64,000 bases of DNA from Leptolyngbya sp. FACHB-261 (lineage in GTDB: Bacteria; Cyanobacteriota; Cyanobacteriia; FACHB-261), in contig NZ_JACJPL010000031.1 in the NCBI RefSeq assembly GCF_014696065.1, positions 744,001 through 808,000 on the forward strand, given 5' to 3'. The notes under the pieces were generated by a model. That model was not told where the DNA came from. It saw only the letters and a list, made by a program, of their open reading frames with translations, and made no database searches. A program made the position numbers and the translations under genes. Positions 19,402 to 55,569 of the stretch are shown piece by piece. Every line of letters begins with the position of its first letter. Position 1 is the first letter of the stretch.

Positions 19402-19479
19402 CAAATGTTTCTGGCAAATGTTTTTGGCAAGTGTTTTTGGCAAATGTTCCTGGCCAGTATTTCTAGCAATTGTTTGTGG
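19402..19479. repeat. Six-copy 13-bp tandem repeat
   Basis: Six exact 13-bp steps of the pattern CAAATGTTTCTGG, with a few substitutions per copy and a degenerate seventh start (gaagtg). It fills most of the 106-bp gap between the ABC permease stop and the holA start, so it lies in the leader of holA or in the permease-holA transcript. Same period as five other intergenic loci here. Confidence 0.9.
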
Positions 19480-42382: not shown

Positions 42383-42462
42383 CTTTTGATCTGCTCTTTT
42401 AATCTGCTCTCTGGGTTTGCCCGCTTGATCGGCTCTCTTGATTGGCCCTCTTGATTTATGGG
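42383..42462. repeat. 13-bp tandem repeat, 5 copies in two blocks
   Basis: cttttgatctgct, cttttaatctgct, a 15-bp divergent unit, then cttgatcggctct, cttgattggccct and cttgatttatggg. It lies between the stops of the convergent genes at 41986 and 42477. Confidence 0.8.
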
Positions 42463-42476
42463 CTTAGATTGCTGCA

Positions 42477-42797
42477 TTAGGGGACTCGGTCGCTGTTGTG
42501 TACAGTGCGGAGCAGGTTGGGCGAGAGGCTATAGAGCGGAATAGTGGGGCCGCCACCTTCGGGATGGACGGTGACTTTGCGAACTAAATCGCGGGCTTCG
42601 AGGCTGAGCAGTAGGGGCTGGAGGTTTTGGGGTTCGAGGTTGCTGTCGCGGCTGAGCAGGACGAGACTGACGCGGGAGTGTCCGCCGTTGGGTTCGAGGT
42701 AATTGGCGATGGTGAGCAAGATCAGTTTGAGCGGGGCGGCCAGGTTGAGGCGGCGGGTGATGTGGTCCCAGAGGGCGAGGCGAAGGTTGGGGCTCAT
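42477..42797 (-). CDS. Winged-helix DNA-binding-like protein
   Basis: 106 residues from the ATG at 42797. LKLILLTIANYLEPNGGHSR, SLVLLSRDSNLEPQNLQPLL and LSLEARDLVRKVTVHPEGGG follow the HTH_36/replication-initiator winged-helix pattern (helix, Gly-turn, recognition helix, beta wing). The open frame continues upstream through a 21-bp repeat array (GTG at 42863 would add 22 residues; neither start has a clear RBS). The array just upstream resembles iterons, so an origin or operator-binding role is possible (inference). Confidence 0.6.
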   Translation of the reverse strand: MSPNLRLALWDHITRRLNLAAPLKLILLTIANYLEPNGGHSRVSLVLLSRDSNLEPQNLQPLLLSLEARDLVRKVTVHPEGGGPTIPLYSLSPNLLRTVHNSDRVP

Positions 42798-42837
42798 GGT
42801 GAGTACAGGGGTTGGGAAGGGTTTTGTAAATGAATTA

Positions 42838-42983
42838 CTTACCAATGCCGTAACGTTTGCCACTAACGTCGTAACGTTTGCCAGTAATTGGTAGTTTTTG
42901 CCACTAACGTCGTAACGTTTGCCACTAATGTCGTAGCGTTGGTCAGTAACTTCGTAACGTTTGCCACTAATGTCGTAGCGTTT
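42838..42983. repeat. Seven-copy 21-bp iteron-like array
   Basis: Units of about gccactaacgtcgtaacgtt: 42838, 42859, 42880 (20 bp, degenerate), 42900, 42921, 42942 and 42963. Each has the half-palindromic core TAACGTCGTAACGTT. It lies between the stop of the gene at 43001 and the start of the winged-helix gene. On the minus strand the period of 21 gives a heptapeptide frame (SGKRYDV-like) open into the downstream gene. Confidence 0.9.
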
Positions 42984-43000
42984 GCCACCTCACAGGTTTG

Positions 43001-43381
43001 TTACTGGGCTGGAAGAAGAGAGCTGGCTAAGTCTTCCTGTAGAGCTTTCAACTGCTGCCGTCGCTGTCGCCACAGGTGCCGCCAATACCTCAACACATCG
43101 TCGGGGTAGGCGTAGCGCTGGATTTCGGTTTTGATGACTTCGCCAACCCAGTCGAGCAGGTGCAGGTCGTTGCAGGCTTGGATGGTTAGAGCACAGGCGG
43201 AGAGCCACTGGTTAAATTTGCGATAGCTGAGGAATTGCCCACCCCGATCGGCACGATGGACAAACAGCACGTGCAACCAGTGTTCAATACGGCAAATGAG
43301 CGATTCGGGAATGCCTAAAAACCGGGCAACTTGAGACAAGGGAATGCAAAGCTGCGGCTGCAACACCTGAGTAAGGTGCAT
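43001..43381 (-). CDS. Unknown protein with HTH-like N-terminus
   Basis: 126 residues from the ATG at 43381 (GGAG ten bases upstream; a TTG at 43396 would add five residues). The N-terminal IPLSQVARFLGIPESLICRI reads like a helix-turn-helix. The rest is helical and basic/aromatic (LRYWRHLWRQRRQQLKALQE). No family recognised. Its stop is 18 bp from the 21-bp array; the neighbouring winged-helix gene lies beyond on the same strand. Confidence 0.6.
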   Translation of the reverse strand: MHLTQVLQPQLCIPLSQVARFLGIPESLICRIEHWLHVLFVHRADRGGQFLSYRKFNQWLSACALTIQACNDLHLLDWVGEVIKTEIQRYAYPDDVLRYWRHLWRQRRQQLKALQEDLASSLLPAQ

Positions 43382-43396: not shown

Positions 43397-44258
43397 AAAT
43401 TTGAGGGCAATAGAGCCTTTGACCCCTATTCAGGGTCGAGAAAGGCAAGTGCTAAACTGCCCCCTAGCCGCCAGGTCGCGTCTAACGACCTGAGCGGTTA
43501 GTTCCCCAGAGTTTGTATAAGACCCTGGGGGACGCCTAGGGGCCAGTTGCCTGAGTTGGAAATTACCAGGGACTTGCCGCTGGAGTCAAGTAGGCAAAGA
43601 AAAATTGTTTTGGTCTACCGACTGCGGGAACCAGTGGCTATCCTAGGATGAACTCTACTCACTGCCGAAAGATAAGAACAAGGAACAGCACTCAGGTGTT
43701 CAAGTGTACTGACCTCTGTTATCAGCTCCTTCCACCTGATAGAGAAAGAGGGAATTCGTGTGTTTATCAAATACAAATACTCACACGGTCCATGTTTTTA
43801 AGTATTACCTGCGAACCTGCGAAACATAATGTAGTAATGAATTTGCTGAACATTTCTTTACTCGGTACGATAGGAATAAGATGTATCCTCAACTTAGTCA
43901 AGCAGTTTTAACAAATGCTGAGCTTCCTAATTGTTGCCTTAGCCAAGGGTTAATATACAAATAGCCTGCGCAGGAATGGTCTAGTTGATCTAGTTGTCAA
44001 AATCAGAAACTAGCTTAAAAAAGTCATACAAGATGGTGGACTAGAGAATAGCAGACTAAAAGAGAGCTACTCTAATAATGGAGCTAGCCAATTGGGTTTC
44101 AAGAAGGAAGCTATTGTGAGGTTGCTCATTAGTTTCCAAAGTCAATGAAATTGCGAGATTATTTATGATCGGAGTTTGTGAAAAGACTAGACGGTTCAAT
44201 GATTAAACACTCTAGGCAGTGAAGCCAGGCTTCATACAAATTAGTGAAACTACAAATC
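43397..44258. other. GC-to-AT transition zone
   Basis: About 860 bp. The left 150 bp are GC-rich and strongly structured (see the junction element at 43444). From about 43600 the sequence becomes AT-rich and remains so to about 51.5 kb. An 87-codon ORF at 43648 has no RBS and odd composition; I do not accept it as a gene. No integrase or att site seen. Confidence 0.5.
43444..43551. other. Three-way-junction inverted-repeat element (possible structured RNA)
   Basis: Closing stem CCCCTAG (43461)/CTAGGGG (43536) extended by AACTG/CAGTT and GGC/GCC. Inside, hairpin A CCGC-CAGGTCG/CGACCTG-GCGG (43468-43497) and hairpin B GTTCCCCAG/CTGGGGGAC (43501-43533). The arms account for most of the 108 nt. 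Strand and function unknown; could be a ncRNA, leader or recombination-type DNA structure. Confidence 0.55.
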
Positions 44259-44771
44259 ATGGAAATTTTAGGCGTACTCATCGGAACCATTGTAGGAGGA
44301 CTTATAACTTGGTTCACAACTGCCCATTGGAATAGGCTACAAACGACGTTTGATCTACACCGCGAATTTGACAGTGATGTCATGCATGAATCGAGAATGA
44401 GTGCAGACCAGCTCATCAAGGGAAATCCTCACGATACATTGGGTGAGATATACAAGAAAGATCCTGAAAAATCACGTTACTTATGGCAGTTAATAAACTT
44501 CTATCGGCGTTTGTCACTTGCAATCAAATATAATCAGGTTAATCCTGATCTGATTCCAGAACTATTCGGTGAAATATTCACTTGGTGGTACATCGTTTGC
44601 TTTGAAAACCAGCTACTCGCAGATGAAAAAAATTATTTTTCCCCATCTCGAAAGCAGATTTTTTGGCTAAAGAAGTGGCTTGATACTCACGCAAATAAAA
44701 CCGAACTCTCTAAATGGACTGCAAATGCTTTAGATGACTTACAGAATTACAGGCAGGGAAATTTTATGTAG
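44259..44771 (+). CDS. Membrane-anchored hypothetical protein
   Basis: 170 residues from the ATG at 44259 (an in-frame GTG at 44244 would add five). One N-terminal membrane helix (ILGVLIGTIVGGLITWFTT) is followed by a cytosolic helical domain (FDLHREFDSDVMHESRMSAD; LWQLINFYRRLSLAIKYNQV; FTWWYIVCFENQLL). The layout resembles DUF4760-type proteins, but I do not assign it. AT-rich, in the accessory island. Confidence 0.65.
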   Translation: MEILGVLIGTIVGGLITWFTTAHWNRLQTTFDLHREFDSDVMHESRMSADQLIKGNPHDTLGEIYKKDPEKSRYLWQLINFYRRLSLAIKYNQVNPDLIPELFGEIFTWWYIVCFENQLLADEKNYFSPSRKQIFWLKKWLDTHANKTELSKWTANALDDLQNYRQGNFM

Positions 44772-45079
44772 GAATTTCTAAAGTTACTCCCTGGTGGTTG
44801 TATGCAGACCTCATTGTTTTACCTACCTAAAGAATGCAGTTTGATATAAGCCACTGCACCAGAACATTCATGTCGCTATCAGTTGGCAAAGGCAATCTGT
44901 GCTCGGTAGATAGATCCGTTATACAGCTTCACTTCTTGGTAGATGAGAGCAGAACAGAGGCGTCAGGATGTTTCCTACTTTTATCGTATATCCACTGTAA
45001 AAGTTTTTACAGTAGATCGTTTGCAGGCCAACTTATACATTGAAACTTTGAACAAAAAAAGAGATCTCTAACATTAAAC
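44772..45079. other. AT-rich intergenic region, no gene seen
   Basis: 308 bp. A 69-codon ORF (44834-45043) is probably chance. No clear promoter or terminator. The 40 bp before the nuclease gene are A-rich. Confidence 0.4.
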
Positions 45080-46621
45080 ATGAATTTCAAAAACTTCTCT
45101 GAGTTACGTGAGTTTATTCGCCGCTACAATTCAACTTCAGTCTTAGAGACTGGGGCTAAAAGATGTTGGCAAAAGTGGGAAACTCAATACTCAAATCCCT
45201 TAGATTGGTTGAAGGGCAATACAGAACGCAATCTTGCTATCCGGCTCATGTTACTAGCTAGCGCCGGTAATCCCTATCGACGCGAGAATATTAGTATTCG
45301 GACGTTTGATAATTTGATTAATACTTACTATAACTGGGGTGGGCATACTATTTCAGACACTCATCTTCTCAGGGAAGAATTGAAGGTTCTATCAAGCTCC
45401 ATCCTACGCTGGGAAATCGACAATGAGAATAAAGTACGCAACTGGTCATTGAAGCTGAGTAATATTTTGGATTTAGAAGTAATTCGTTCTCATATAACTG
45501 GTTTATTCGTACAACGTTTAGTGGCTTTCCAAAATGCAGGCTTTGGGTCTCCAGTTTCTCGCATAAATCGAACAATCAAACTAATTGAGGTATTGGACAA
45601 TCTATCTAACAAAGAGTTTTCAGCTGTTTCTCCAAATCATACAGGCTTGAACCCAATAAGTTACTTTAGGCAGTTTTTAGCCTGTTTGGTTTTGTTTAAC
45701 CGGTTTTCTGACAGAAAAGGATTTTGTAATTTTTCTCAGCTTTCTAATATGGATGGCGAACTTCAGAAATTGGATGTTACTTCAGAGAGCCTAAAAGTAT
45801 TTATCAAACAAAATAGTGCACTTTTCTCTGCGCAAACTGATACTTCATTCCGTAGCAAGACCAGCGGAACTCTTAATAGTGTTCCTGACTACTATCAGCC
45901 GTTTTTTTTCAACCATTTTCTGGAGATTCCCTTTGTTGAATTGAGTAATGAAGAATTCTGTTTGCCAGATCCTTTTTCTTTTACTGAGTCCTGTTGGAAT
46001 CAAGTGAGAGGTTTTGTTTTTAAGGGCAGCCATAGAAGAAAACCAGAACAATTATTAAGTCGCGCATTTGAACATTATCTTGAAAATGTACTATTCCCTT
46101 TTATTTGTCCTAACTCTTTTGAGAGAATTACTGAAGTCAAAAATCCTAGTTCTAGTAAAGATAAGCGTGCTGATTTTCTCATTAAAACCTCAAACTCCTA
46201 TATTGTAATAGAATGCAAAAGTAGTGTTATGTCTTCTGATACAAGTGCTTATTTCCAGGCTGATAAACTTGCGGATCTTTGGTGCCGTATTCACTCTGCA
46301 TCTGAGCAAATTGGTACAACAGTAGAAGCTCTCAATCTCTATGACAAGCCAGTGATTCCTCTCATTATGACTTTCTATGACAGTGTTGCTGCATCCACAG
46401 TGTTTGAGGGGATGGTAAGGCAAACTGATTATTGCTCTAGTGTAGGGTTGAATATGCCACCACTTGTACATTCCTTACATGAATTTGAGCATTGGACTTC
46501 TGATAGAAGCCTCAATAATTGGTCAGATTTAATTCTCTCGAAACAAAGTACCTATCCTCCTGTACGAGCCGACAACAAGGGACATAATTATGAGCACTTA
46601 AATGATATTTCTATTTTTTAA
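45080..46621 (+). CDS. Putative PD-(D/E)XK nuclease with large helical N-domain
   Basis: 513 residues. The C-terminal part (from about 330) has the restriction-endonuclease-like fold signature: KPEQLLSRAFEHYLENVLF helix with Glu, beta-hairpin ADFLIKTSNSYIVIECKSS giving D365, E378 and K380 (D-x12-ExK), then QADKLADLWC. The first 330 residues are helical and unassigned. Such proteins are typically anti-phage or mobile-element nucleases, but catalysis is only predicted. AT-rich and unlike its neighbours, it is the core of the accessory island. No methyltransferase partner is present. Confidence 0.72.
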   Translation: MNFKNFSELREFIRRYNSTSVLETGAKRCWQKWETQYSNPLDWLKGNTERNLAIRLMLLASAGNPYRRENISIRTFDNLINTYYNWGGHTISDTHLLREELKVLSSSILRWEIDNENKVRNWSLKLSNILDLEVIRSHITGLFVQRLVAFQNAGFGSPVSRINRTIKLIEVLDNLSNKEFSAVSPNHTGLNPISYFRQFLACLVLFNRFSDRKGFCNFSQLSNMDGELQKLDVTSESLKVFIKQNSALFSAQTDTSFRSKTSGTLNSVPDYYQPFFFNHFLEIPFVELSNEEFCLPDPFSFTESCWNQVRGFVFKGSHRRKPEQLLSRAFEHYLENVLFPFICPNSFERITEVKNPSSSKDKRADFLIKTSNSYIVIECKSSVMSSDTSAYFQADKLADLWCRIHSASEQIGTTVEALNLYDKPVIPLIMTFYDSVAASTVFEGMVRQTDYCSSVGLNMPPLVHSLHEFEHWTSDRSLNNWSDLILSKQSTYPPVRADNKGHNYEHLNDISIF

Positions 46622-46696
46622 GTTTTATCTAGATCAACTTAAATAAACTGGTAATGAGTGCAGCAGACTATCCTTGATGAAAGAGTGGTTAACTGC

Positions 46697-46976
46697 ATGA
46701 CTCTTCAACAACTTCAAAACCAGCTACTTGCCCTATCCTCCGCCGAAAAAGCTCAGGCGATCCAAATCTTGGTTGCCAGCCTGAGTGGAACCCGGATCGG
46801 TATTGAAAAAACACCAGGAGTGATGGGGGGTGATGCCTGTATCCGTCAAACCCGCATTCCTGTCTGACTACTGGTCAGCCTGCATCAACAGGGAGCCAGC
46901 GAAGCTGACTTGCTCGGAGACTATCCCAGCCTCACTGCCAGTGATTGCAAACGCTTGGCTCTATGCAGAAACTTAA
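46697..46976 (+). pseudogene. DUF433 antitoxin-like gene, two lesions
   Basis: Reads MTLQQLQNQLLALSSAEKAQ..., GVMGGDACIRQTRIPV, then TGA (46865) where the family has TGG (Trp), followed in frame by LLVSLHQQGASEADLLGDYP. A one-base deletion near 46946-46950 then shifts the frame: ANAWLYAET-stop (46974) reads only in the next frame. The family is normally about 75-110 residues and pairs with a PIN-like DUF5615 toxin. No toxin is visible downstream. Confidence 0.85.
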
Positions 46977-47044
46977 CCTGATAAAATCAGTGCCGTAATT
47001 CAGTGTCAAGAGGCTGCCCACCTGATATTTAGGAAAAATAATTG

Positions 47045-47479
47045 ATGGAGAATGATAGAGAATACGAGATACTACTCAAGCTCCTTGAGATTGACCAAAA
47101 CAGGATTAGCGCTCTTGATGTTACTAGCTTCACCATAAAAGGTTGGGCTATAACTCTAGTTTCAGCCCTCATTGGTTTTGCCATTCAGCAACACGACAAG
47201 CGCTTTCTGGGCATTGGAATTGCTGCCATCACATTTTTTGCCTACTTTGATTTTCGGTATAGAAAAGTTCAACTAAGTCACGTTGAAAGATCGAGCAGCA
47301 TCCAGAAGCACTTCAAACAATACTATCTAGATCAAGGTTCAAGCCTGAGTGGCGAGCTTGAAAATATATTCAAGTCCTCTCCGAGAAAAGATTTTTGGAC
47401 ACAGTATTTCTTCTCTGTATTCTTATTGTATATATGCATAGAGATCACATTAATTCTTCTCATGTTCGTAACAATATAG
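47045..47479 (+). CDS. Two-helix-hairpin membrane protein, unknown
   Basis: 144 residues. A soluble N-terminal helix (YEILLKLLEIDQNRISALDV) precedes two close membrane segments (GWAITLVSALIGFAIQQ; FLGIGIAAITFFAYFDF). A basic helical loop and a C-terminal membrane segment (YFFSVFLLYICIEITLILLMF) follow. Layout resembles SLATT-like or other small effector proteins in defence loci, but no signature is decisive. Start is ATG 47045. Confidence 0.6.
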   Translation: MENDREYEILLKLLEIDQNRISALDVTSFTIKGWAITLVSALIGFAIQQHDKRFLGIGIAAITFFAYFDFRYRKVQLSHVERSSSIQKHFKQYYLDQGSSLSGELENIFKSSPRKDFWTQYFFSVFLLYICIEITLILLMFVTI

Positions 47480-47575
47480 GCTGGTTGGGAGGCAAGTCAT
47501 TGTGGACGAGGTAAGCTGTGTACACCTACTCGTACCAGTAAGAAGGCCACCGTTTAGAAAAATCGAGAAGTGATT

Positions 47576-47806
47576 ATGGAACAAATCGCCAAACTACACA
47601 TCGAGAAACTGCCTGAAGGAGTCTACCTGGCTACCTCAGACGATATTCCAGGCTTGGTTGCGCAAGGACGTATCGTTGCTGAAACCATTGAAATTCCTCG
47701 TGATGTCGCGAAAAAGCTAATTGGAGCTCAAACCGAGCGCCAAAGTACAGTCAGCCTTACCAACATCGAAGATTCATTTGACTACCCGCTGATTCTGGGG
47801 GTTTGA
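47576..47806 (+). CDS. HicB-like antitoxin (DUF1902 type)
   Basis: 76 residues, MEQIAKLHIEKLPEGVYLAT then SDDIPGLVAQGRIVAETIEI, the partial RNase-H-like fold of HicB/DUF1902 antitoxins, with RDVAKKLIGAQ. Its TGA overlaps the ATG of a truncated hicA reading frame by one base, the usual antitoxin-toxin coupling. The antitoxin appears intact. Confidence 0.82.
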   Translation: MEQIAKLHIEKLPEGVYLATSDDIPGLVAQGRIVAETIEIPRDVAKKLIGAQTERQSTVSLTNIEDSFDYPLILGV

Positions 47807-47892
47807 TGGGGCAGCCGGCAGGTCTCAAATATCGAGAAATTGTCAAACGGCTAAGTAGACTGTTCACCATCGCTGAAGCGTATAATACTTAG
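47806..47892 (+). pseudogene. Truncated HicA-like toxin remnant
   Basis: ATG at 47806 (overlapping the HicB TGA) gives MGQPAGLKYREIVKRLSRLF, matching the HicA first helix, then leaves the family and stops at 47890 after 28 codons. HicA is usually 60-75 residues with a catalytic His in the second half, which is absent. The toxin is therefore lost and the antitoxin orphaned. Confidence 0.72.
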
Positions 47893-47915
47893 AATTTAAA
47901 AAACCATAGGAATAT

Positions 47916-48641
47916 ATGGCTGGTGAGATCTTCAATCTCGTCTCAGGAGCAATAGGAGGTGGACTAGTAGCAGCAGGATTGAGAGTTTTTGAAAACTACT
48001 TTCTTGCTCCTCGTCTAGCCGAATCAGTTGAAGCTCGAAAAAAAATACTCCTCTACAGCAAACCTCTTTGGCGAGCTTGCCATGACCTCCATTACCGTTT
48101 GTTCTATATCAAAAAGAAAATGCATAGCCCACGAGCTACTCTTGCAGCATCACCCCAAGACGCCGAATCACTACAGTGGTTTACAACCAGCGAAGGAAAC
48201 TATATTACCTCTGCCGCGTATATGATAGCGACGGTCGCTTGCTGGATTGCCCTTTATGAGCGAGACGCAGTCTTCTTACAATTCGGCCAAAGGTCACTAA
48301 CCGCTCAATTTTTACTGAAAACTGAAAGCTTCAAACAAAGCATCTCCTCAAACAAAAGCATCCTATGGTTCAACTATGTAAACGGAATTGGGGAACAGCT
48401 AATCCAAGAAGAAACAAATAGGCCCGTCACCTTTTCTAGCTTTTGTCAAAAACTATTGAGAGACCAAGACTTCCGAGACTATTACACTCAACTATTCTGT
48501 TTTTTGAACGAGGTTAATCAAGGCAAGTTCGAGGCCAGCATTGAAAACACTCTTGTTGCTCTAGATGACATTAAAAAGTTCCTTGTCTCAAACGGCATAG
48601 TTGTGGAGATGCCAGAAGAGTTCGGTCCCAAATGGGACTAA
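47916..48641 (+). CDS. Hypothetical protein with N-terminal hydrophobic helix
   Basis: 241 residues. The first 30 (FNLVSGAIGGGLVAAGLRVF) form a Gly-rich membrane or amphipathic helix. The rest is helical (KKILLYSKPLWRACHDLHYR; ITSAAYMIATVACWIALYER), ending acidic (VVEMPEEFGPKWD). Family not recognised. It follows the HicB/HicA remnant in the same direction. Confidence 0.65.
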   Translation: MAGEIFNLVSGAIGGGLVAAGLRVFENYFLAPRLAESVEARKKILLYSKPLWRACHDLHYRLFYIKKKMHSPRATLAASPQDAESLQWFTTSEGNYITSAAYMIATVACWIALYERDAVFLQFGQRSLTAQFLLKTESFKQSISSNKSILWFNYVNGIGEQLIQEETNRPVTFSSFCQKLLRDQDFRDYYTQLFCFLNEVNQGKFEASIENTLVALDDIKKFLVSNGIVVEMPEEFGPKWD

Positions 48642-48984
48642 AGATGAATGCGACGATAGAACAAAACCTAAATACTGGATTACAGAGAAGATCGATAGAA
48701 ATCAGAAGACACTAAGCTGCCACAACTTGATTTGATAGATCTCCGAACAAACGGCGCTACATAAACGACTAGTTTGGGGGCCTTGCTCAAAAGGCAAGCT
48801 GGTACCTGTAAATGAATCTTGAATACCACAGTCACGGCTTTACTGGCTGGCACCAAGGCCCTGTCGTCTTGCTTTGAATTTTTGGGAACTCTATAAATTA
48901 TAGCAGTGGAATCTGAACAAAACGCGCTTTTGGCAATTCAGCTGCCGTTATAACTGCTACCTCAGCTTATTTGGAGAACGACTT
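48642..48984. other. Intergenic region, no gene seen
   Basis: 343 bp. A short stem CTTGC-tcaaaag-GCAAG lies around 48780-48800. TATAAATTATA-like AT-rich DNA at about 48895 may serve as promoter for 48985. Confidence 0.4.
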
Positions 48985-50265
48985 ATGGCAAGACCTTATC
49001 CATTTAAAGGTGGCAATATATCAGATTACGAGACGTTTATTGGCCAAGCAGGTACTTACAATACACGTTATATTCCAACTGGTCAGACTGTTCCATGTAT
49101 TCAACCATCTGGTGGCTTTACATCTCCCTCTCAGCTACTTGATATAAACATGCTTTCAATTGCTAGTCTTGCGCTTGGTGTACTTAATTTGGGTGTTGGC
49201 GTTTATAACGCCTTCCAATTGCAGAAAACTCAGAAAAAGTTAGATCAAAATCATGAGCAGATTCGGGCATATTTTGGAAGCATTCAAAACGCTCTCAATG
49301 CTCATCAACGCACCCTTGAAGTTTTGGTCAGCAGCCAATATGGCTTGTCTCAGCAAATGAACATTCTTCGTGAGGAGATGCGTTCAGATTTTCAACAAAT
49401 AGTCCGGGAAATTCAAGGGGTAGAAGCGCGCAGGCGAAGAAAGGAATTCTATGCTAATACTTATGAGCTAATGGAAGTCTATAAACGTTTTATTGACCAC
49501 CTACCCGATCTATCAGAAGCGGATCGATTAATTGATAGAGCAGAGAAGTTAGAGGCATGGCTGCTAGCTGAACTTGATCAAGTTAGTATGGGTAAGCCTG
49601 AAAGACTACCACTAGTGGTAGCATTATTTTTCAGTGTTAGAGCAAAGGCCGATGCGTTTGAGGCTAAGGGGGGAAAATATATGGCTTCTGCTGACAAGGC
49701 TCTCAATAAACTGAAGAAGCAAATCCAGAGAGAAGCATATGCTCTTTGCAATGGTCGTAGCCTTTATACTCTTGGTGTAGAAATACCAGAGATTGTCTAC
49801 CAGTACGCTCTCTTGCAACGCAGCCTTGCTAAAGGAATTGAGTTGAGATTAAATCCTAAAGCAGAGCTTGCATTCCTTCCGGAAGAAGTCGCCTGGAAGG
49901 ATGGCTTAGATGACTTCAGAAAAATTTTTGAGCAAAAACCAGAAAGTACCGTTAAAGACACCGTAAAAATCAACGAGAAGACAGTGATTCATTTAAAAAC
50001 TCTAGCAGACTGCGATTGGTATATTCGCTTTTCCGGCGAAGACCCTTCAACCTTCGATGTCCACTCTCGTCAATCAATACGACTCAGTGATTTGTTTAGG
50101 GAAATAGGTCACCCTAATCCTACTGAAGGCATACTATACAAGAGTGATTTGTATGCTTTGATGTTATTTTCTTTGCCCGAAGCTTGTAATAAATTCGCAA
50201 GTCGTATCCAGGAGGAGTTCAGTTGGGAAGAACACCCTAAGATTTCCGGTTCTTCATTCCAGTGA
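48985..50265 (+). CDS. Transmembrane coiled-coil hypothetical protein
   Basis: 426 residues. Disordered N-terminal 55 residues (Gly/Pro/Thr), one hydrophobic helix (IASLALGVLNLGVGVYNAF), then a coiled coil of about 90 residues (QLQKTQKKLDQNHEQIRAYF through MRSDFQQIVREIQGVEARR), a helical middle and a C-terminal mixed domain (CDWYIRFSGEDPSTFDVHSR). GGAG precedes the ATG. Architecture suggests a membrane-tethered sensor or pore-like effector (inference). No family recognised. Confidence 0.68.
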   Translation: MARPYPFKGGNISDYETFIGQAGTYNTRYIPTGQTVPCIQPSGGFTSPSQLLDINMLSIASLALGVLNLGVGVYNAFQLQKTQKKLDQNHEQIRAYFGSIQNALNAHQRTLEVLVSSQYGLSQQMNILREEMRSDFQQIVREIQGVEARRRRKEFYANTYELMEVYKRFIDHLPDLSEADRLIDRAEKLEAWLLAELDQVSMGKPERLPLVVALFFSVRAKADAFEAKGGKYMASADKALNKLKKQIQREAYALCNGRSLYTLGVEIPEIVYQYALLQRSLAKGIELRLNPKAELAFLPEEVAWKDGLDDFRKIFEQKPESTVKDTVKINEKTVIHLKTLADCDWYIRFSGEDPSTFDVHSRQSIRLSDLFREIGHPNPTEGILYKSDLYALMLFSLPEACNKFASRIQEEFSWEEHPKISGSSFQ

Positions 50266-50373
50266 GGTTGATTAAGCAATTTCAGCTCTAAAGCTCACTC
50301 ATCGTAAGTAACTCTGCATCCTTTGGTTGACTATACATCATGATAATAGGGTCGATAGTTCTGAACTGACAAG

Positions 50374-51447
50374 ATGGCTGACAGACGCCCCAAACGAAGA
50401 AGCTTGAAATCCCTACTCTTCGAGACTCTACTTAAGGAGTGGGGGGTTTGGCTTACGATTGTTATTCTTCTATTGGCAACACTACTATTCTCTACTCAGC
50501 TTGCCACCTGGTTAGAGAAAGCAGCCTTTATCAAGGTTCTCGACTCTCTCAGCAAACTCGGCTTACTGATCGCTATCATTGCCTTTTTAAGAGAAATCCC
50601 AAAGTGGGAGGAAAGAGCGGCAGAAGAAGCAAAGCGAAGACAATTCGAGTATTGGAAAGCAATTGACGCAGCAAACGCAGCTAGGGAATCTTCACCTGAT
50701 GGACGCTTCACCAGTTATGCCTTGACAATAGCGCTTGAGAACTTAGCACAAGAGCATGACGAGAAAGGCAACCCAATCAAAATGCGCAATGTCGATCTTT
50801 CAGGAGCGAACTTAGAAGACGGCATCAAGCTTTCCAGGATAGATCTCAGTCTTTGCAAGTTTAGATACGCCAATCTTAGTGGAGCTGATTTTAGTCAAAG
50901 CAGCCTACGCAGAGCCAATTTTGCAAGAGCAAGGCTGTTCGGAACCAACTTTTATGATGCTGATCTCGGGATTGCTGGAACAAGAACCATTTTTAAACAA
51001 GCTGTATATGATGAGAGAACCATATTTCCAGCAGGGTTTAATCCTGAAGAGGCAGGAGCATTTAAGATAGCTCCTGAAGTTTCTCTCAAAAACGCTCCCT
51101 TAACCAAAGCCCTTCTATGGGACGCCGATCTTGAGAAAGCCGACTTAGATGCGGCTGACCTCGAAAGAGCAACACTTGATGGCTCAAACCTTAAAGAGGC
51201 TAATCTCCGAGAAGCTAATCTTCAGGAAGTTAAGGCTAGAAACGTTAATTTTCAAGGAGCGGATCTTTCCAAAGCTGACTTACGGGAAGCCAATCTTTTT
51301 GACGCAATCCTCGACAACGCAAACATTCGAGAGACGAACTTTGAAAATGCAGAACACATAACCGTAGAGCAAATTAAATCGGCTCAGAACTGGGAACAAG
51401 CAATATACGATGATAACTTCCGTAAGAAGCTAGGACTAAACCCATAG
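50374..51447 (+). CDS. Membrane-anchored pentapeptide-repeat protein
   Basis: 357 residues. Two N-terminal helices (WLTIVILLLATLLFSTQLAT; LSKLGLLIAIIAFL) with a charged linker, then pentapeptide repeats in two blocks (VDLSGANLEDGIKLSRIDLS... and KALLWDADLEKADLDAADLE...) separated by a short non-repeat insert (about 205-240). The quadrilateral beta-helix faces the cytosol if the helices are a hairpin. Common in cyanobacteria; function unknown. It is the last gene of the AT-rich stretch. Confidence 0.85.
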   Translation: MADRRPKRRSLKSLLFETLLKEWGVWLTIVILLLATLLFSTQLATWLEKAAFIKVLDSLSKLGLLIAIIAFLREIPKWEERAAEEAKRRQFEYWKAIDAANAARESSPDGRFTSYALTIALENLAQEHDEKGNPIKMRNVDLSGANLEDGIKLSRIDLSLCKFRYANLSGADFSQSSLRRANFARARLFGTNFYDADLGIAGTRTIFKQAVYDERTIFPAGFNPEEAGAFKIAPEVSLKNAPLTKALLWDADLEKADLDAADLERATLDGSNLKEANLREANLQEVKARNVNFQGADLSKADLREANLFDAILDNANIRETNFENAEHITVEQIKSAQNWEQAIYDDNFRKKLGLNP

Positions 51448-51658
51448 GTTAGAGCCCATTATCAGCGATCTGAAGCAGATGAACGCATAGCTCTGCATTC
51501 ATGATCTTTGCCTTCTCCACAGGTATAATGTTACATCGCAGGCAGTATTTGTATTGCGCTTACCATAAGCACTGCAGTTGCGGATTCAGAGCAGGATGCT
51601 GCCCTTTAAAAGCATAGAGTTTGTAAGGGCAATCCCTGCTAGTTGCCTTCATCCTTAG
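51448..51658. other. Intergenic region at the right edge of the AT-rich island
   Basis: About 210 bp of intermediate composition, no gene or repeat seen. It precedes a coding-like fragment at 51659. Confidence 0.4.
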
Positions 51659-51814
51659 CAGAGCAGGCAAAGACTCGACTCAACAGAATTCATCGCCCTG
51701 GTATTGACCGATGCCAAAATTTCTGGCGCTGAACCAGTACCACTTGCCAGCAACTATAAAATGACAGAGACTGCTGCTCAGCTGTTCACAGAAATGAAAA
51801 GGTATGAGCCATGA
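51659..51814 (+). pseudogene. 3' fragment of an unknown gene, coupled to ohr
   Basis: An open frame of 51 codons bounded by TAG (51656-51658) has protein-like composition (EFIALVLTDAKISGAEPVPL, ETAAQLFTEMKRYEP) but no start with an RBS. Its TGA overlaps an ATG at 51811 that is in frame with ohr (ATGA), the signature of operon coupling. Probably the tail of a deleted upstream partner; identity unknown. Confidence 0.4.
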
Positions 51815-51870
51815 CCTCTAATACTGAGAAACTGCTCCAAGAACTAGGGCAACAATACGAGGGAGCCACG

Positions 51871-52305
51871 ATGCAACCTCTGTATACAGCTGTAGTTACA
51901 GTAACCCCTGGGCCAGAGGGACACGCCCGACTATCCAGTCACGCCCGCAGTTCTGATGGGCTACTAGATCTGAACTTAGCATTTCCAGCTGAGCTAGGGG
52001 GACACGGCCAAGGAACGAATCCCGAACAACTGTTTGCAGCTGGCTATGCAGCCTGTTTTCATGGCGCACTTGCCCTAGTTTCTAGAAAAGCAGGCGTTGA
52101 TGCCTCTAAAGCAACTGTCACCTGCTCTGTAACGATTGGCAGAGATCCTACAGACGGTGGCTATATGCTTGCGGCTAAGTTAACAGTCGAGATTCCGGGT
52201 GCAGACCACGCGAAAGCCGAGCAGGCAGTTGCTCAAGCGCACCAGCTTTGCCCCTACTCAAAAGCGATTCGTGGCAATGTCGATGTGCAGGTGACCGTAG
52301 TTTGA
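51871..52305 (+). CDS. ohr: Organic hydroperoxide resistance protein
   Basis: 144 residues, OsmC/Ohr thiol peroxidase that reduces organic peroxides with its reactive Cys pair: GYAACFHGALALVSRKAG and HQLCPYSKAIRGN. LYTAVVTVTPGPEGHARLSS is the family N-terminus. Start chosen at ATG 51871 (AGGGAG five bases upstream, family length). An in-frame ATG at 51811, overlapping the stop of an upstream fragment, would add 20 residues. No ohrR nearby. Confidence 0.92.
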   Translation: MQPLYTAVVTVTPGPEGHARLSSHARSSDGLLDLNLAFPAELGGHGQGTNPEQLFAAGYAACFHGALALVSRKAGVDASKATVTCSVTIGRDPTDGGYMLAAKLTVEIPGADHAKAEQAVAQAHQLCPYSKAIRGNVDVQVTVV

Positions 52306-52410
52306 TTTGCCTGTGGGTTATACTATCGGTCCCATACCAGAGCAACAAGTGAGTCAACAGAGCAGCTGCGAGATAGTGGCAACTAATTCTATGTCTTATC
52401 TATTGATGCG

Positions 52411-53517
52411 ATGAATCAAAAATCGTTGCAGAAGCGCAGCCTCTATCGCTCTGAACCTGTTGCCTATTTGCTGATTGAAAAGCTACATCTCTCTCCCTTC
52501 AGTCTTGGGCTACTTTCAATCGTGCTCGTCGCGGGGCTTTATTTAATTGCAGCTTGGGTGAGCAACACCTTATGGTCCAAGCCAGGGCAGGTAGGCTTAC
52601 TTCAAGACTGGTTTCCCTGGTTTTGGATCCTGTTCATCAATCCAGTGGTTTCGGGATATTATTTGTGGAGTTTTCAAGCCATTGACCATGTTGTTCAGGA
52701 GCTTGAAGCATCTGATGTGGTGGAAACCGATCAATCAGAAATTGATCAGATTATTTTCAGCTTCTACCACCAAAAATGGCGCAAGCTTCTGGCCTTGGCT
52801 ACTGCAGTTGGTTACAGTACCTTCGTTTTCGTCACCCAATCTAGCTTAAAAAATAATTGGTATGGTTCCGGACTCCTGCCAAATTTGGCTGTCACCATTG
52901 CCACATTTGCCGTAGTGTACACGGGCGCTGTGCTGGTCTTGAACCTTATTACTAATCTCCGGGTTCTGCATCGTATCCTCCAAGAAAAACAGCTTAATAT
53001 CAATCCTCTGCATCCAGACCGTTGCGGTGGGCTTCAACCACTAAGTGACTATTCCCTAAAGACTGCATATTTAGCTGCTGTTTTAGGCATAATGGTTGGG
53101 CTCATTGAATATCAGTTCATCAGTCAAGGAGTTGATCGGGTTTATTGGTTTGTCCATCTCATCATCCCACTCCACATTGCTTTATCAATCGCCTGTTTCT
53201 ATGGCCCTCTACTAGCGGCCCATAGGGGAATGAGAAAAGCGAAGGAAGATCTCTTACACAAGATTGCTCGACAGTTTCAAGCGGATTACTCTCAGATTCA
53301 TACCAGCCTGACCGGAGACGCAGAGGTTCTTAAGAAGGGTAGCGAGAAAATTAAGGAGCTTCGTGCTTTCTACACCCTGACTGACGAATTTCCCGTGTGG
53401 CCCTTCGATGTTCAAACTTTCCGCCGGTTTCTGCTGACTGTGCCTAGCCCTCTCCTACCTCTACTACCAAAGCTAATAGGAATTCTGCTCAAAAAGTGGG
53501 GCATTGAGATTGGCTAA
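52411..53517 (+). CDS. Multi-pass membrane protein, unknown
   Basis: 368 residues with six to seven hydrophobic helices (LGLLSIVLVAGLYLIAAWVS; FPWFWILFINPVVSGYYLWS; ALATAVGYSTFVFVTQSSL; TIATFAVVYTGAVLVLNLIT; VYWFVHLIIPLHIALSIACF). A cytosolic basic/acidic helix follows (GMRKAKEDLLHKIARQFQAD), then a Pro-rich tail. No motif recognised. Confidence 0.72.
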   Translation: MNQKSLQKRSLYRSEPVAYLLIEKLHLSPFSLGLLSIVLVAGLYLIAAWVSNTLWSKPGQVGLLQDWFPWFWILFINPVVSGYYLWSFQAIDHVVQELEASDVVETDQSEIDQIIFSFYHQKWRKLLALATAVGYSTFVFVTQSSLKNNWYGSGLLPNLAVTIATFAVVYTGAVLVLNLITNLRVLHRILQEKQLNINPLHPDRCGGLQPLSDYSLKTAYLAAVLGIMVGLIEYQFISQGVDRVYWFVHLIIPLHIALSIACFYGPLLAAHRGMRKAKEDLLHKIARQFQADYSQIHTSLTGDAEVLKKGSEKIKELRAFYTLTDEFPVWPFDVQTFRRFLLTVPSPLLPLLPKLIGILLKKWGIEIG

Positions 53518-53598
53518 TTCAGAATCCAGAATGAACAGAGGAGTGACCACCTAGAATTAGTCAGAAAAAATAGCTTTATGCTCTCATTTACACCCTCA

Positions 53599-53641
53599 CA
53601 AGCCAAGCCCGATAGTTCAGGAAACTACCGGGCTTGGCTTG
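53599..53641. terminator. Long hairpin terminator between convergent genes
   Basis: CAAGCCAAGCCCGATAGTT (53599-53617) pairs with AACTACCGGGCTTGGCTTG (53623-53641), 19 bp with one G-T and a 5-nt loop. It separates convergent genes at 52411 and 53745. Confidence 0.9.
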
Positions 53642-53744
53642 ATGGGAAGATAGAAAACTTCGCTTTCAGCAGTTATATCTAACGCCTCTAAAACTGATCT
53701 CAACTCCCCATCATGCAGCTCATGGTGCAGACACAAGCCGACTG

Positions 53745-54791
53745 TTATCGATTAGCAGTTGCCACTTCTTGCTGGAGCTTGCTCTTGGCCGCTTTGAACT
53801 CGCTAGCCATTTGCTCTTTCTGCTCGCTGCTGCAATTCTTATCGATTGACGCGAACATCGTGCTTTCCTCCTGGCGGATGTGGTCACCCACCATTTCCAT
53901 AAGATCCTTGACCTTAGATCTGAACTCGTCCGCTGAAGCAGGGTCAATTGCCTTGATCTCGTCAAGCATCCGCTTCATTTCGGCTTGCTCATCGTACAGC
54001 TCTTGCGTGTCCCCCTCGCCGTAGAACGGGCGAACTTTCGGGTAGACAACTTCTTCTTCAGCCTGGGCATGGACCAATAGATCTTTGTAAAGCTGGCTGA
54101 AATACTCTTGGAGCTTCTGAGGATCTTTCGTCGCTCCGATTTCGGTGAAGATGGTATTCACCTTGTTGTGGTCCAGCCGGATCAGGGTCTGAATGTTCAT
54201 GTCCTGCTTGTCTGTGTTCTGGGTAATCACGCTACCCGCAACACCCGACAGGGCAGCAACTGCATCCTGCACGCGCGCCCAAAGCCCTTGCTTGGCTTCT
54301 TTGCCGGTCATCTCACGGACACCCACCTGTTCCAGCACACCCTTGAGCTGTTCTTGGTGAGCACGGCCCTCGAAGTTGACCGTATTCAAAGGCGTAATCG
54401 CCACTTCAATATCAGCCCCTACTACCTGAGCGGCTTTGTGGATCATGATTCCACTCATCGCCTGACCATGCTTCATCAGTTCGTGATGCATGAGTTTCTG
54501 GTAGAACGTAAACTCATCGCCCGACATCATCTGCTCGAACTGCGGAATAAATATGTTGGTCGCAGCACTAGGTTCAGATTGAATGCCGTATTGAACGATC
54601 ACGGTCTCTATAATGCCTAGGTTTTTGCGGTCATCCTCAAGCATGTTCTGAAGACGCTCACGGACATCGTCGTAAGGGCAGACGTCGATGAGCTTTTGAT
54701 CATTCGAGATAATCAAATTTTGAAAAGCCTTAAGATCTGCCAATCTCTCGCCGATGGCAAGCCGTTTGGTATCGTCTAGTGTTGTAGCCAT
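53745..54791 (-). CDS. Hemerythrin-like HHE protein with ferritin-like N-domain
   Basis: 348 residues from the ATG at 54791 (GTAGGAG upstream). C-terminal hemerythrin HHE domain with iron ligands in LIRLDHNKVNTIF, LLVHAQAEEEVVYP and DHIRQEESTMFASI. The N-terminal half (RLADLKAFQNLIISNDQKLI; QKLMHHELMKHGQAMSGIMI) is a second helical, His/Glu-bearing domain, possibly another HHE or ferritin-like bundle. A TTG at 54824 would add 11 residues. Oxygen, iron or NO handling is likely (inference). Confidence 0.85.
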   Translation of the reverse strand: MATTLDDTKRLAIGERLADLKAFQNLIISNDQKLIDVCPYDDVRERLQNMLEDDRKNLGIIETVIVQYGIQSEPSAATNIFIPQFEQMMSGDEFTFYQKLMHHELMKHGQAMSGIMIHKAAQVVGADIEVAITPLNTVNFEGRAHQEQLKGVLEQVGVREMTGKEAKQGLWARVQDAVAALSGVAGSVITQNTDKQDMNIQTLIRLDHNKVNTIFTEIGATKDPQKLQEYFSQLYKDLLVHAQAEEEVVYPKVRPFYGEGDTQELYDEQAEMKRMLDEIKAIDPASADEFRSKVKDLMEMVGDHIRQEESTMFASIDKNCSSEQKEQMASEFKAAKSKLQQEVATANR

Positions 54792-55569
54792 GCTGGATGC
54801 TCCTACAAAGAAGTAAAGTGACAAAAATGCTTGAATACCTTGATCCTGGCGGTGAACCCGTTCTCGTCCACCCGACCAAAGTTAGATGTTTTGATTGAGC
54901 CCACAGGCAGCTAGCCGCCGAGGAAGACCTATAGTAGAGCGCAGTTGTGATGGCCAAGCGTTACAGAGCCCCTGGTTTGAGAGCCAGTTTTATGTTCTGA
55001 CCTGTCTGTCGTTGGCAAGTGCGTTACGGCATTGCTTTAGAACTAATCAATAAGCCTCTAGCAGAAGTGCCTTAGCTAAAACCTTAAGAGCTCTGTTATC
55101 ACTGCCTTATTGAGCAAGCTACAGGACAAAATACGAGTTTTAATGCCTTACTCGTTGGAATCCTAGTTCTGTATATAGCCCTATAAAGTAGACTGCATCA
55201 GAAACAAGCTTTAATTTCAAGGGCTAGTGACACTGGGGTTTAAGGCCTATGGGGCAGTCTGTATCTGCCTAAATCACTACTGGGCAGCCCAGCACTTTGT
55301 TCAGGTTTCAGTTGTCCGGGCAATGTCCGGGCAGGAGAAGTGACGCCAGTAGAAGTGGGGGAGGAAACCTCACTCTGAGCTGAGGATAGTGCCCTGCTGG
55401 GACCGTTGCTTCAGCGGAGCGGCAGACAGCGGACAAAGTCGGAAACCCAGAGGGGAAGACGTTGATAAAACTTTTTCAAATCAACACCCCACTCAGGTAT
55501 TAGAGCAAACTGGCACCTGCCCAGTCAAAGCTCTATGGTGCTGGTAATGTGTGTGAGGAGGTACGAAGC
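54792..55569. other. Long leader/intergenic region with GC-rich structured segment
   Basis: 780 bp between divergent genes. 55310-55460 is GC-rich with repeated GTCCGGGCA (two copies), GGAGG-aaa-CCTC and CGGAC pairs, and may fold as an RNA leader; a TTGAT/ATCAA hairpin lies at about 55463. I see no match to a known riboswitch class. Confidence 0.45.

Follow-up and report, generated by a model that had tools for sequence, protein, structure and literature searches.

The 21-bp tandem repeats located between two small genes in the 64,000-nucleotide stretch of DNA analyzed here (hereafter, the window) are part of a multi-copy chromosomal element of cyanobacteria that sits where core DNA meets accessory DNA and consists of a structured leader RNA (R1), small HTH genes, and an array with a period of about 21 bp. 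In the copies that carry an array, the period remains close to 21 bp or a multiple whereas the sequence of the repeated unit varies. The explanation that appears best compatible with these observations, and that is put forward tentatively, is that the array is a helically phased, locus-specific row of predicted protein-binding sites that might regulate the element itself and the neighboring accessory genes. The combination of RNA, HTH genes and arrays is absent from the libraries searched (Rfam, Pfam, PHROGs, and collections of plasmids and phages), and a literature search, mainly of open-access papers, identified no published description of such an RNA or of such arrays.

The repeat array and the island edge

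On the minus strand of the window, the structured RNA, gene A, the array and gene B follow one another in this order (Table 1). An earlier note, made from the letters of the window, described seven 21-bp direct repeats with the core TAACGTCGTAACGTT, and this description is borne out. The core is found in the array, for which Tandem Repeats Finder reports a period of 21 with 6.7-7.0 copies and 76% matches and, with the period of 42, 82% matches and a score of 213; the units are not all exactly 21 bp long, one step being 20 bp. The self-identity of the A-B interval at lag 21 is 0.538, compared to 0.396 for the best of lags 5-63 across 2000 shuffles, so that the array is confirmed as real, far above the shuffled sequences. 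Directly 3' of gene B (42386-42455), the window also contains an imperfect 13/26-bp repeat, TTGATCTGCTCTC, and an intergenic 13-bp tandem array, other than the 21-bp type, is present at 19402-19479 (CAAATGTTTCTGG, six copies).

Table 1. Features of the element and of the adjacent island in the window
Feature	Position	Strand	Remarks
Gene B	42477-42797	-	106 aa, single winged-helix protein
Tandem array	42844-42988	-	roughly seven units of 21 bp (minus-strand sequence GTGGCAAACGYTACGRCRTTA); one 20-bp step; alternating 42-bp super-period
Gene A	43001-43381	-	126 aa, small HTH-like protein
Structured leader RNA R1	43441-43539	-	covarying hairpins P1 and P2; conserved CTRACC and GGCTR motifs; 93 bits, E 3.6e-24
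Possible promoter	43560-43589	-	TTGACT-N18-TAATTT, just upstream of the RNA; inferred
AT-rich island	~43900-54800		upstream of the element; boundaries approximate
DUF4760 gene	44244-44771		first gene in the island; transcribed away from A
Gene with a weak match to a restriction-enzyme-like N-terminal domain	45080-46621		transcribed away from A

The position at the edge of an AT-rich island, also pointed out in the note, is a general property of the array-bearing clade because 13 loci of this clade are AT-rich upstream of the element (GC content of 0.43, compared to 0.54 downstream) and carry accessory genes there. In the paralogous loci, the genes upstream of A are mostly divergent and accessory, and include those for type I restriction methylase, DUF4238, DUF6602, DUF5677, Phd antitoxin, and DUF4760.

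The structured RNA and its linkage to the arrays

About 220 nucleotides upstream of A are conserved among the close copies, and an RNA core of about 98 positions recurs at nearly all A loci and ahead of lone B genes; at nine A loci of the Symploca type, the RNA is likewise located upstream of A. In an alignment of 26 sequences, the 22 pairs of the RNA give 87.4% standard pairs, shifting the pairing partner lowers this value to 26-46%, and both sides of a pair are changed in 104 cells, compared to 39.5 in shuffles, none of which (500 in all) reaches this number. A search of Rfam 15 with R1 detects no family above the gathering score. The model of this RNA identifies 73 copies in this genome and has matches in 89 of the 390 genomes of the cyanobacterial class, this genome included (e.g., 64 copies in G182 and 22 in G065). 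The TTGACT of the possible promoter is invariant in 15 close copies, with the promoter as a whole scoring under the threshold of a sigma-70 scan. Long CRISPR-like arrays with the unit GTCGCAAAGAACCTAAATCCCTTTGAGGGATTGAAAC are present near the RNA copies C26:15562 and C26:538855 (L261, i.e., G000:C26:1-20000, and L285), and several RNA copies (L306, L060, L293) are immediately preceded by long repeats of the coding type, with units of 126 or 120 bp that look WD40-like by eye.

An array was assigned to an RNA locus if it had a period of 20-22 bp or a multiple thereof and was located outside longer ORFs and within 1.5 kb. By this definition, 34 of the 73 RNA loci possess an array, a few of which (L053 at -879, L059 at -1367, and L293) may be coding; at the other 39, none was detected. 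The array positions cluster either upstream of the RNA, between -139 and -327, or between A and B (or A and C), from +453 to +973. Control DNA, 800 kb selected so as to avoid the known A/B loci, contains five such arrays, three of which adjoin RNA copies, leaving two unlinked. The density of ~21-bp arrays at the RNA loci is about 70-fold above that in the control, compared to only about 4-fold for arrays with other periods, and Fisher's p for the array-RNA linkage is ~1e-23, a figure uncorrected for relatedness that paralogy makes weaker. In other genomes, arrays are found at -112, -162, and -168 in G065 (two of these show lags of 41/61/20, that is, a period of about 20.5) and at about -110 and -758 in G033, and many RNA loci, e.g., in G182, have no array. 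The position of the array relative to the RNA varies between clades, upstream of the leader in some and between A and B in the clade of the window, and some arrays sit at RNA loci that have neither A nor B.

Genes A, B and C

To judge from the paralogues, which differ mainly at third codon positions (for L035 and L036, 2/0/21 differences at positions 1/2/3 of A and 10/6/23 in B), A and B are real genes, both under purifying selection. The 6.95-Mb genome contains 47 matches to A and 45 to B. Relatives of A are present in Symploca, Microcoleus, Moorena, and other cyanobacteria. B, searched for in 389 further genomes of the class, gives a single weak match there and is otherwise not found. Translation of B from the conserved ATG yields the 106-aa protein, and the longer GTG start at 42863, which would run into the array, is probably not used. 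At L032 (2595-2777), a second, truncated copy of B lies about 1.3 kb downstream of the intact gene.

The structure predicted for B is a single winged helix (pLDDT 87.6) that appears to be of the MarR/TFE type, although sharing this fold shows no function. Of the designation "HTH_36-like" given in the note, the winged helix stands but the family label is weak: HTH_36 matches 5 of 16 B members, with the best E of 0.0013 and none above the Pfam gathering score, and the B protein of the window has no HTH_36 match at E up to 1. For A, the note's small HTH-like gene, a real gene is confirmed and a confident model has an HTH-like N-terminal part; Pfam HTH matches among the A members are weak (the best is HTH_23, 0.0022), and no clear solved relative emerges (nothing below E 0.13 in Foldseek; best VIA-align Z of 6.6); A might still adopt a known fold. 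In most of the other genomes examined (L209-L227), the RNA is followed by a small protein C (..VLLIGSxxGVxxTIHxLHxRGFAExGAWS..), which belongs to no Pfam family. At L059, the order is RNA, A, array, and then a C-like protein.

One period, many unit sequences

A search for the array beside the homologues, as the note proposed, shows that a ~21-bp array accompanies the majority of close paralogues and many further RNA loci; the possibility, raised in the same note, that homologues are never accompanied by repeats is thus false. In the A-B intervals, the unit is GGCAAACGTTACGACGTTAGT in the window and L044, TTCAAAGCACCGATGTCGCAG in L033 and L034, CCATCAACGGACCCATTCACT in L035, L036, and L037, CACTTCATTTCGGTCCCCGAC in L038, and of the type AAATTTCGCTAATTCTAAGC in L040, L042, and L043; further unit families occur in other close paralogues, and at L059 the unit CCAAGCTTCTGATTTAGCTCC is found twice, between A and another gene. 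These unit families are unrelated whereas the strongest self-lag of every array-bearing A-B interval is 21 or near a multiple (20, 41-43, 62-63). A length of 20.5 to 21 bp corresponds to two turns of B-DNA. No array is present between A and B at L031, L032, and L041, and two unit types also stand alone, with neither A nor B (L071, L072, L178). Given that B proteins that are 84-89% identical (the window and L031-L034) go with quite different arrays or with none, recognition of the unit sequence by B in all of these cases is unlikely. Dyads beyond chance are found in 3-4 of the 21 consensus units, most units being non-palindromic, and palindromic operators were rejected on this ground.

Between paralogues, the A-B intervals change less than the third codon positions of the genes. 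Their substitutions are spread about evenly over the three phases, one gap or none occurs in the 382-390 nt compared, and no reading frame has a synonymous excess. Between L035 and L036, 16 of the 382 interval positions are changed, compared to 21 of the 124 third positions of A; between the window and L044, the interval is 84% identical, with 3 gaps, compared to 70% for gene A and 68% for gene B. These values indicate that the interval evolves as constrained non-coding DNA, selection being the simplest reading, but the high conservation among the paralogues could result from gene conversion instead.

Interpretation of the array

Under the favored explanation, the array would act as DNA, with putative protein sites that recur every two turns along the same side of the helix, and each locus, or each small group of loci, would have a unit sequence of its own. 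We infer that the HTH proteins of the element, one of them or both, would bind the array cooperatively, and that the levels at which the RNA-A-B transcript and the divergent accessory genes are expressed would be set in this way. The lone arrays of the same unit types are as expected of targets in trans. This explanation is favored by the shared period of unrelated units, the linkage of arrays to the RNA, the constraint on the interval, the winged helix predicted for B, and the AT-rich upstream side; weighing against it are the near-identical B proteins next to differing arrays or none, the scarcity of palindromic units, the clade-dependent position of the array, and the 39 RNA loci at which none was detected. 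The autoregulated operator array suggested in the note as one of two possibilities fits better than the other one, a replicon: the array is non-coding and constrained, with the proviso on gene conversion given above, although co-evolution of the unit sequence with the DNA-binding protein, here B, is not observed.

The main rival is a two-turn duplication of local sequence, that is, a by-product of recombination in which an integrase or a repair process at the edges of the element would copy any sequence it meets there over about two turns of the helix. Such a process, which we consider unlikely, accounts for unrelated unit sequences sharing one period and fits the position beside the element and the island edges, the 42- and 63-bp super-periods, and the lack of an array in L031 and L032. 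However, the element encodes no integrase or nuclease, one unit type can be found at several loci, and both the near absence of gaps among diverged paralogues and the excess conservation of the interval over the genes in the comparison of the window with L044 suggest constraint.

A role of the array as RNA within the A-B transcript, via folding, protein binding, or control of stability, seems improbable. In other clades, the array lies upstream of the RNA leader, outside the arrangement between co-directional genes that makes this role conceivable in the clade of the window. The arrays of L033, L035, L036, and L039 fold better than shuffles, but those of the window, L044, and L059 do not, and the excess, where present, is mostly seen on both strands; RNA folding was rejected as an explanation that is inconsistent from locus to locus.

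Plasmid origin, random minisatellites and coding heptads all fit poorly. Iterons consist of direct repeats in tandem, each spanning roughly two turns of the helix, that adjoin a winged-helix gene and differ in unit sequence from replicon to replicon; the array resembles them in having direct repeats in the 17-22 bp range, a locus-specific sequence, and an adjoining winged-helix gene. Nevertheless, the replicon remnant proposed in the note, i.e., an iteron origin of an integrated plasmid with A and B as a split initiator, is very improbable and is not supported by the searches. Among 72,556 plasmids, neither A nor B has a match, and 50,697 phage records contain none for B, so that no Rep initiator gene with plasmid or phage relatives in these collections lies beside the array; a B paralogue matches phage replication-initiation families very weakly (E 0.064 and 0.29). 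No exact copy of the DnaA box TTWTNCACA is present within 4 kb of the array, and the 3 copies in the whole window, against 3.85 expected, are at the chance level. Furthermore, B is a single short winged helix, the genome contains 45-47 chromosomal paralogues, of which the near-identical L031 and L032 have no array, and arrays occur also at RNA loci lacking both A and B.

That the arrays are ordinary cyanobacterial minisatellite noise, independent of the element, is barely credible given the difference between the 70-fold and 4-fold enrichments, although the surroundings of A relatives in other cyanobacteria often contain tandem repeats, mostly with heptanucleotide units. The least credible reading takes the unit as seven codons, with a translated heptad repeat that would form the N-terminal end of B or belong to a small ORF of its own. 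It is suggested by 21 being divisible by three and by an open frame upstream of B that extends across several arrays, partly or completely; it is largely refuted by the substitution pattern, with a synonymous excess in no frame, and by the period of about 20.5 in G065, which is incompatible with seven codons and fits B-DNA, and it also conflicts with the units of 20 and 22 bp and the stops in L040, L042, and L043.

Returning to the phased protein-binding array, a broader and slightly more speculative proposal is that of a widespread element that comprises a structured RNA not described so far, small genes that can be swapped (A plus B, or C), and an array in which the two-turn spacing is selected while the unit is free at each locus, and that could serve as an addressable control module for accessory and conflict genes at island edges. 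If so, a large class of cyanobacterial chromosomal modules, up to 73 per genome, joins folded RNA, small HTH proteins, and phased arrays, and might explain how accessory islands in these cyanobacteria are controlled or marked. The rule of constant spacing and variable sequence raises the question whether a protein reads geometry over sequence or a process with a two-turn step builds the arrays.

Comparison with known systems

Like R1, the Downstream-peptide motif (RF01704; PMC2864571) is a cyanobacterial structured RNA found ahead of short ORFs without an assigned function, but R1 is tied to HTH genes and 21-bp arrays and has no match in Rfam. The MarR/TFE-type winged-helix proteins share the fold predicted for B (VIA-align Z of up to 11.3, rmsd of 4.2 over 97 residues), from which B differs in its small size of 106 aa and in having no family-level sequence match. 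Iteron plasmids (reviewed in PMC4980987) have in common with the window the tandem repeats of about two turns, the winged-helix neighbor, and the locus-specific unit; unlike these, the element is chromosomal, occurs in tens of copies without replicon relatives or DnaA boxes, has its array upstream or downstream of an RNA, and encodes a single short winged-helix protein. In the operator arrays of autoregulated HTH regulators, repeats likewise lie next to HTH genes, between divergent or co-directional genes, whereas here the units are not conserved even among near-identical paralogues and the spacing alone is. The TAACTGA direct repeats of Beggiatoaceae (PMC4679880) similarly form many intergenic sets per genome and have been proposed to be regulatory, but they keep a constant unit sequence, whereas the present element keeps the spacing and changes the sequence.
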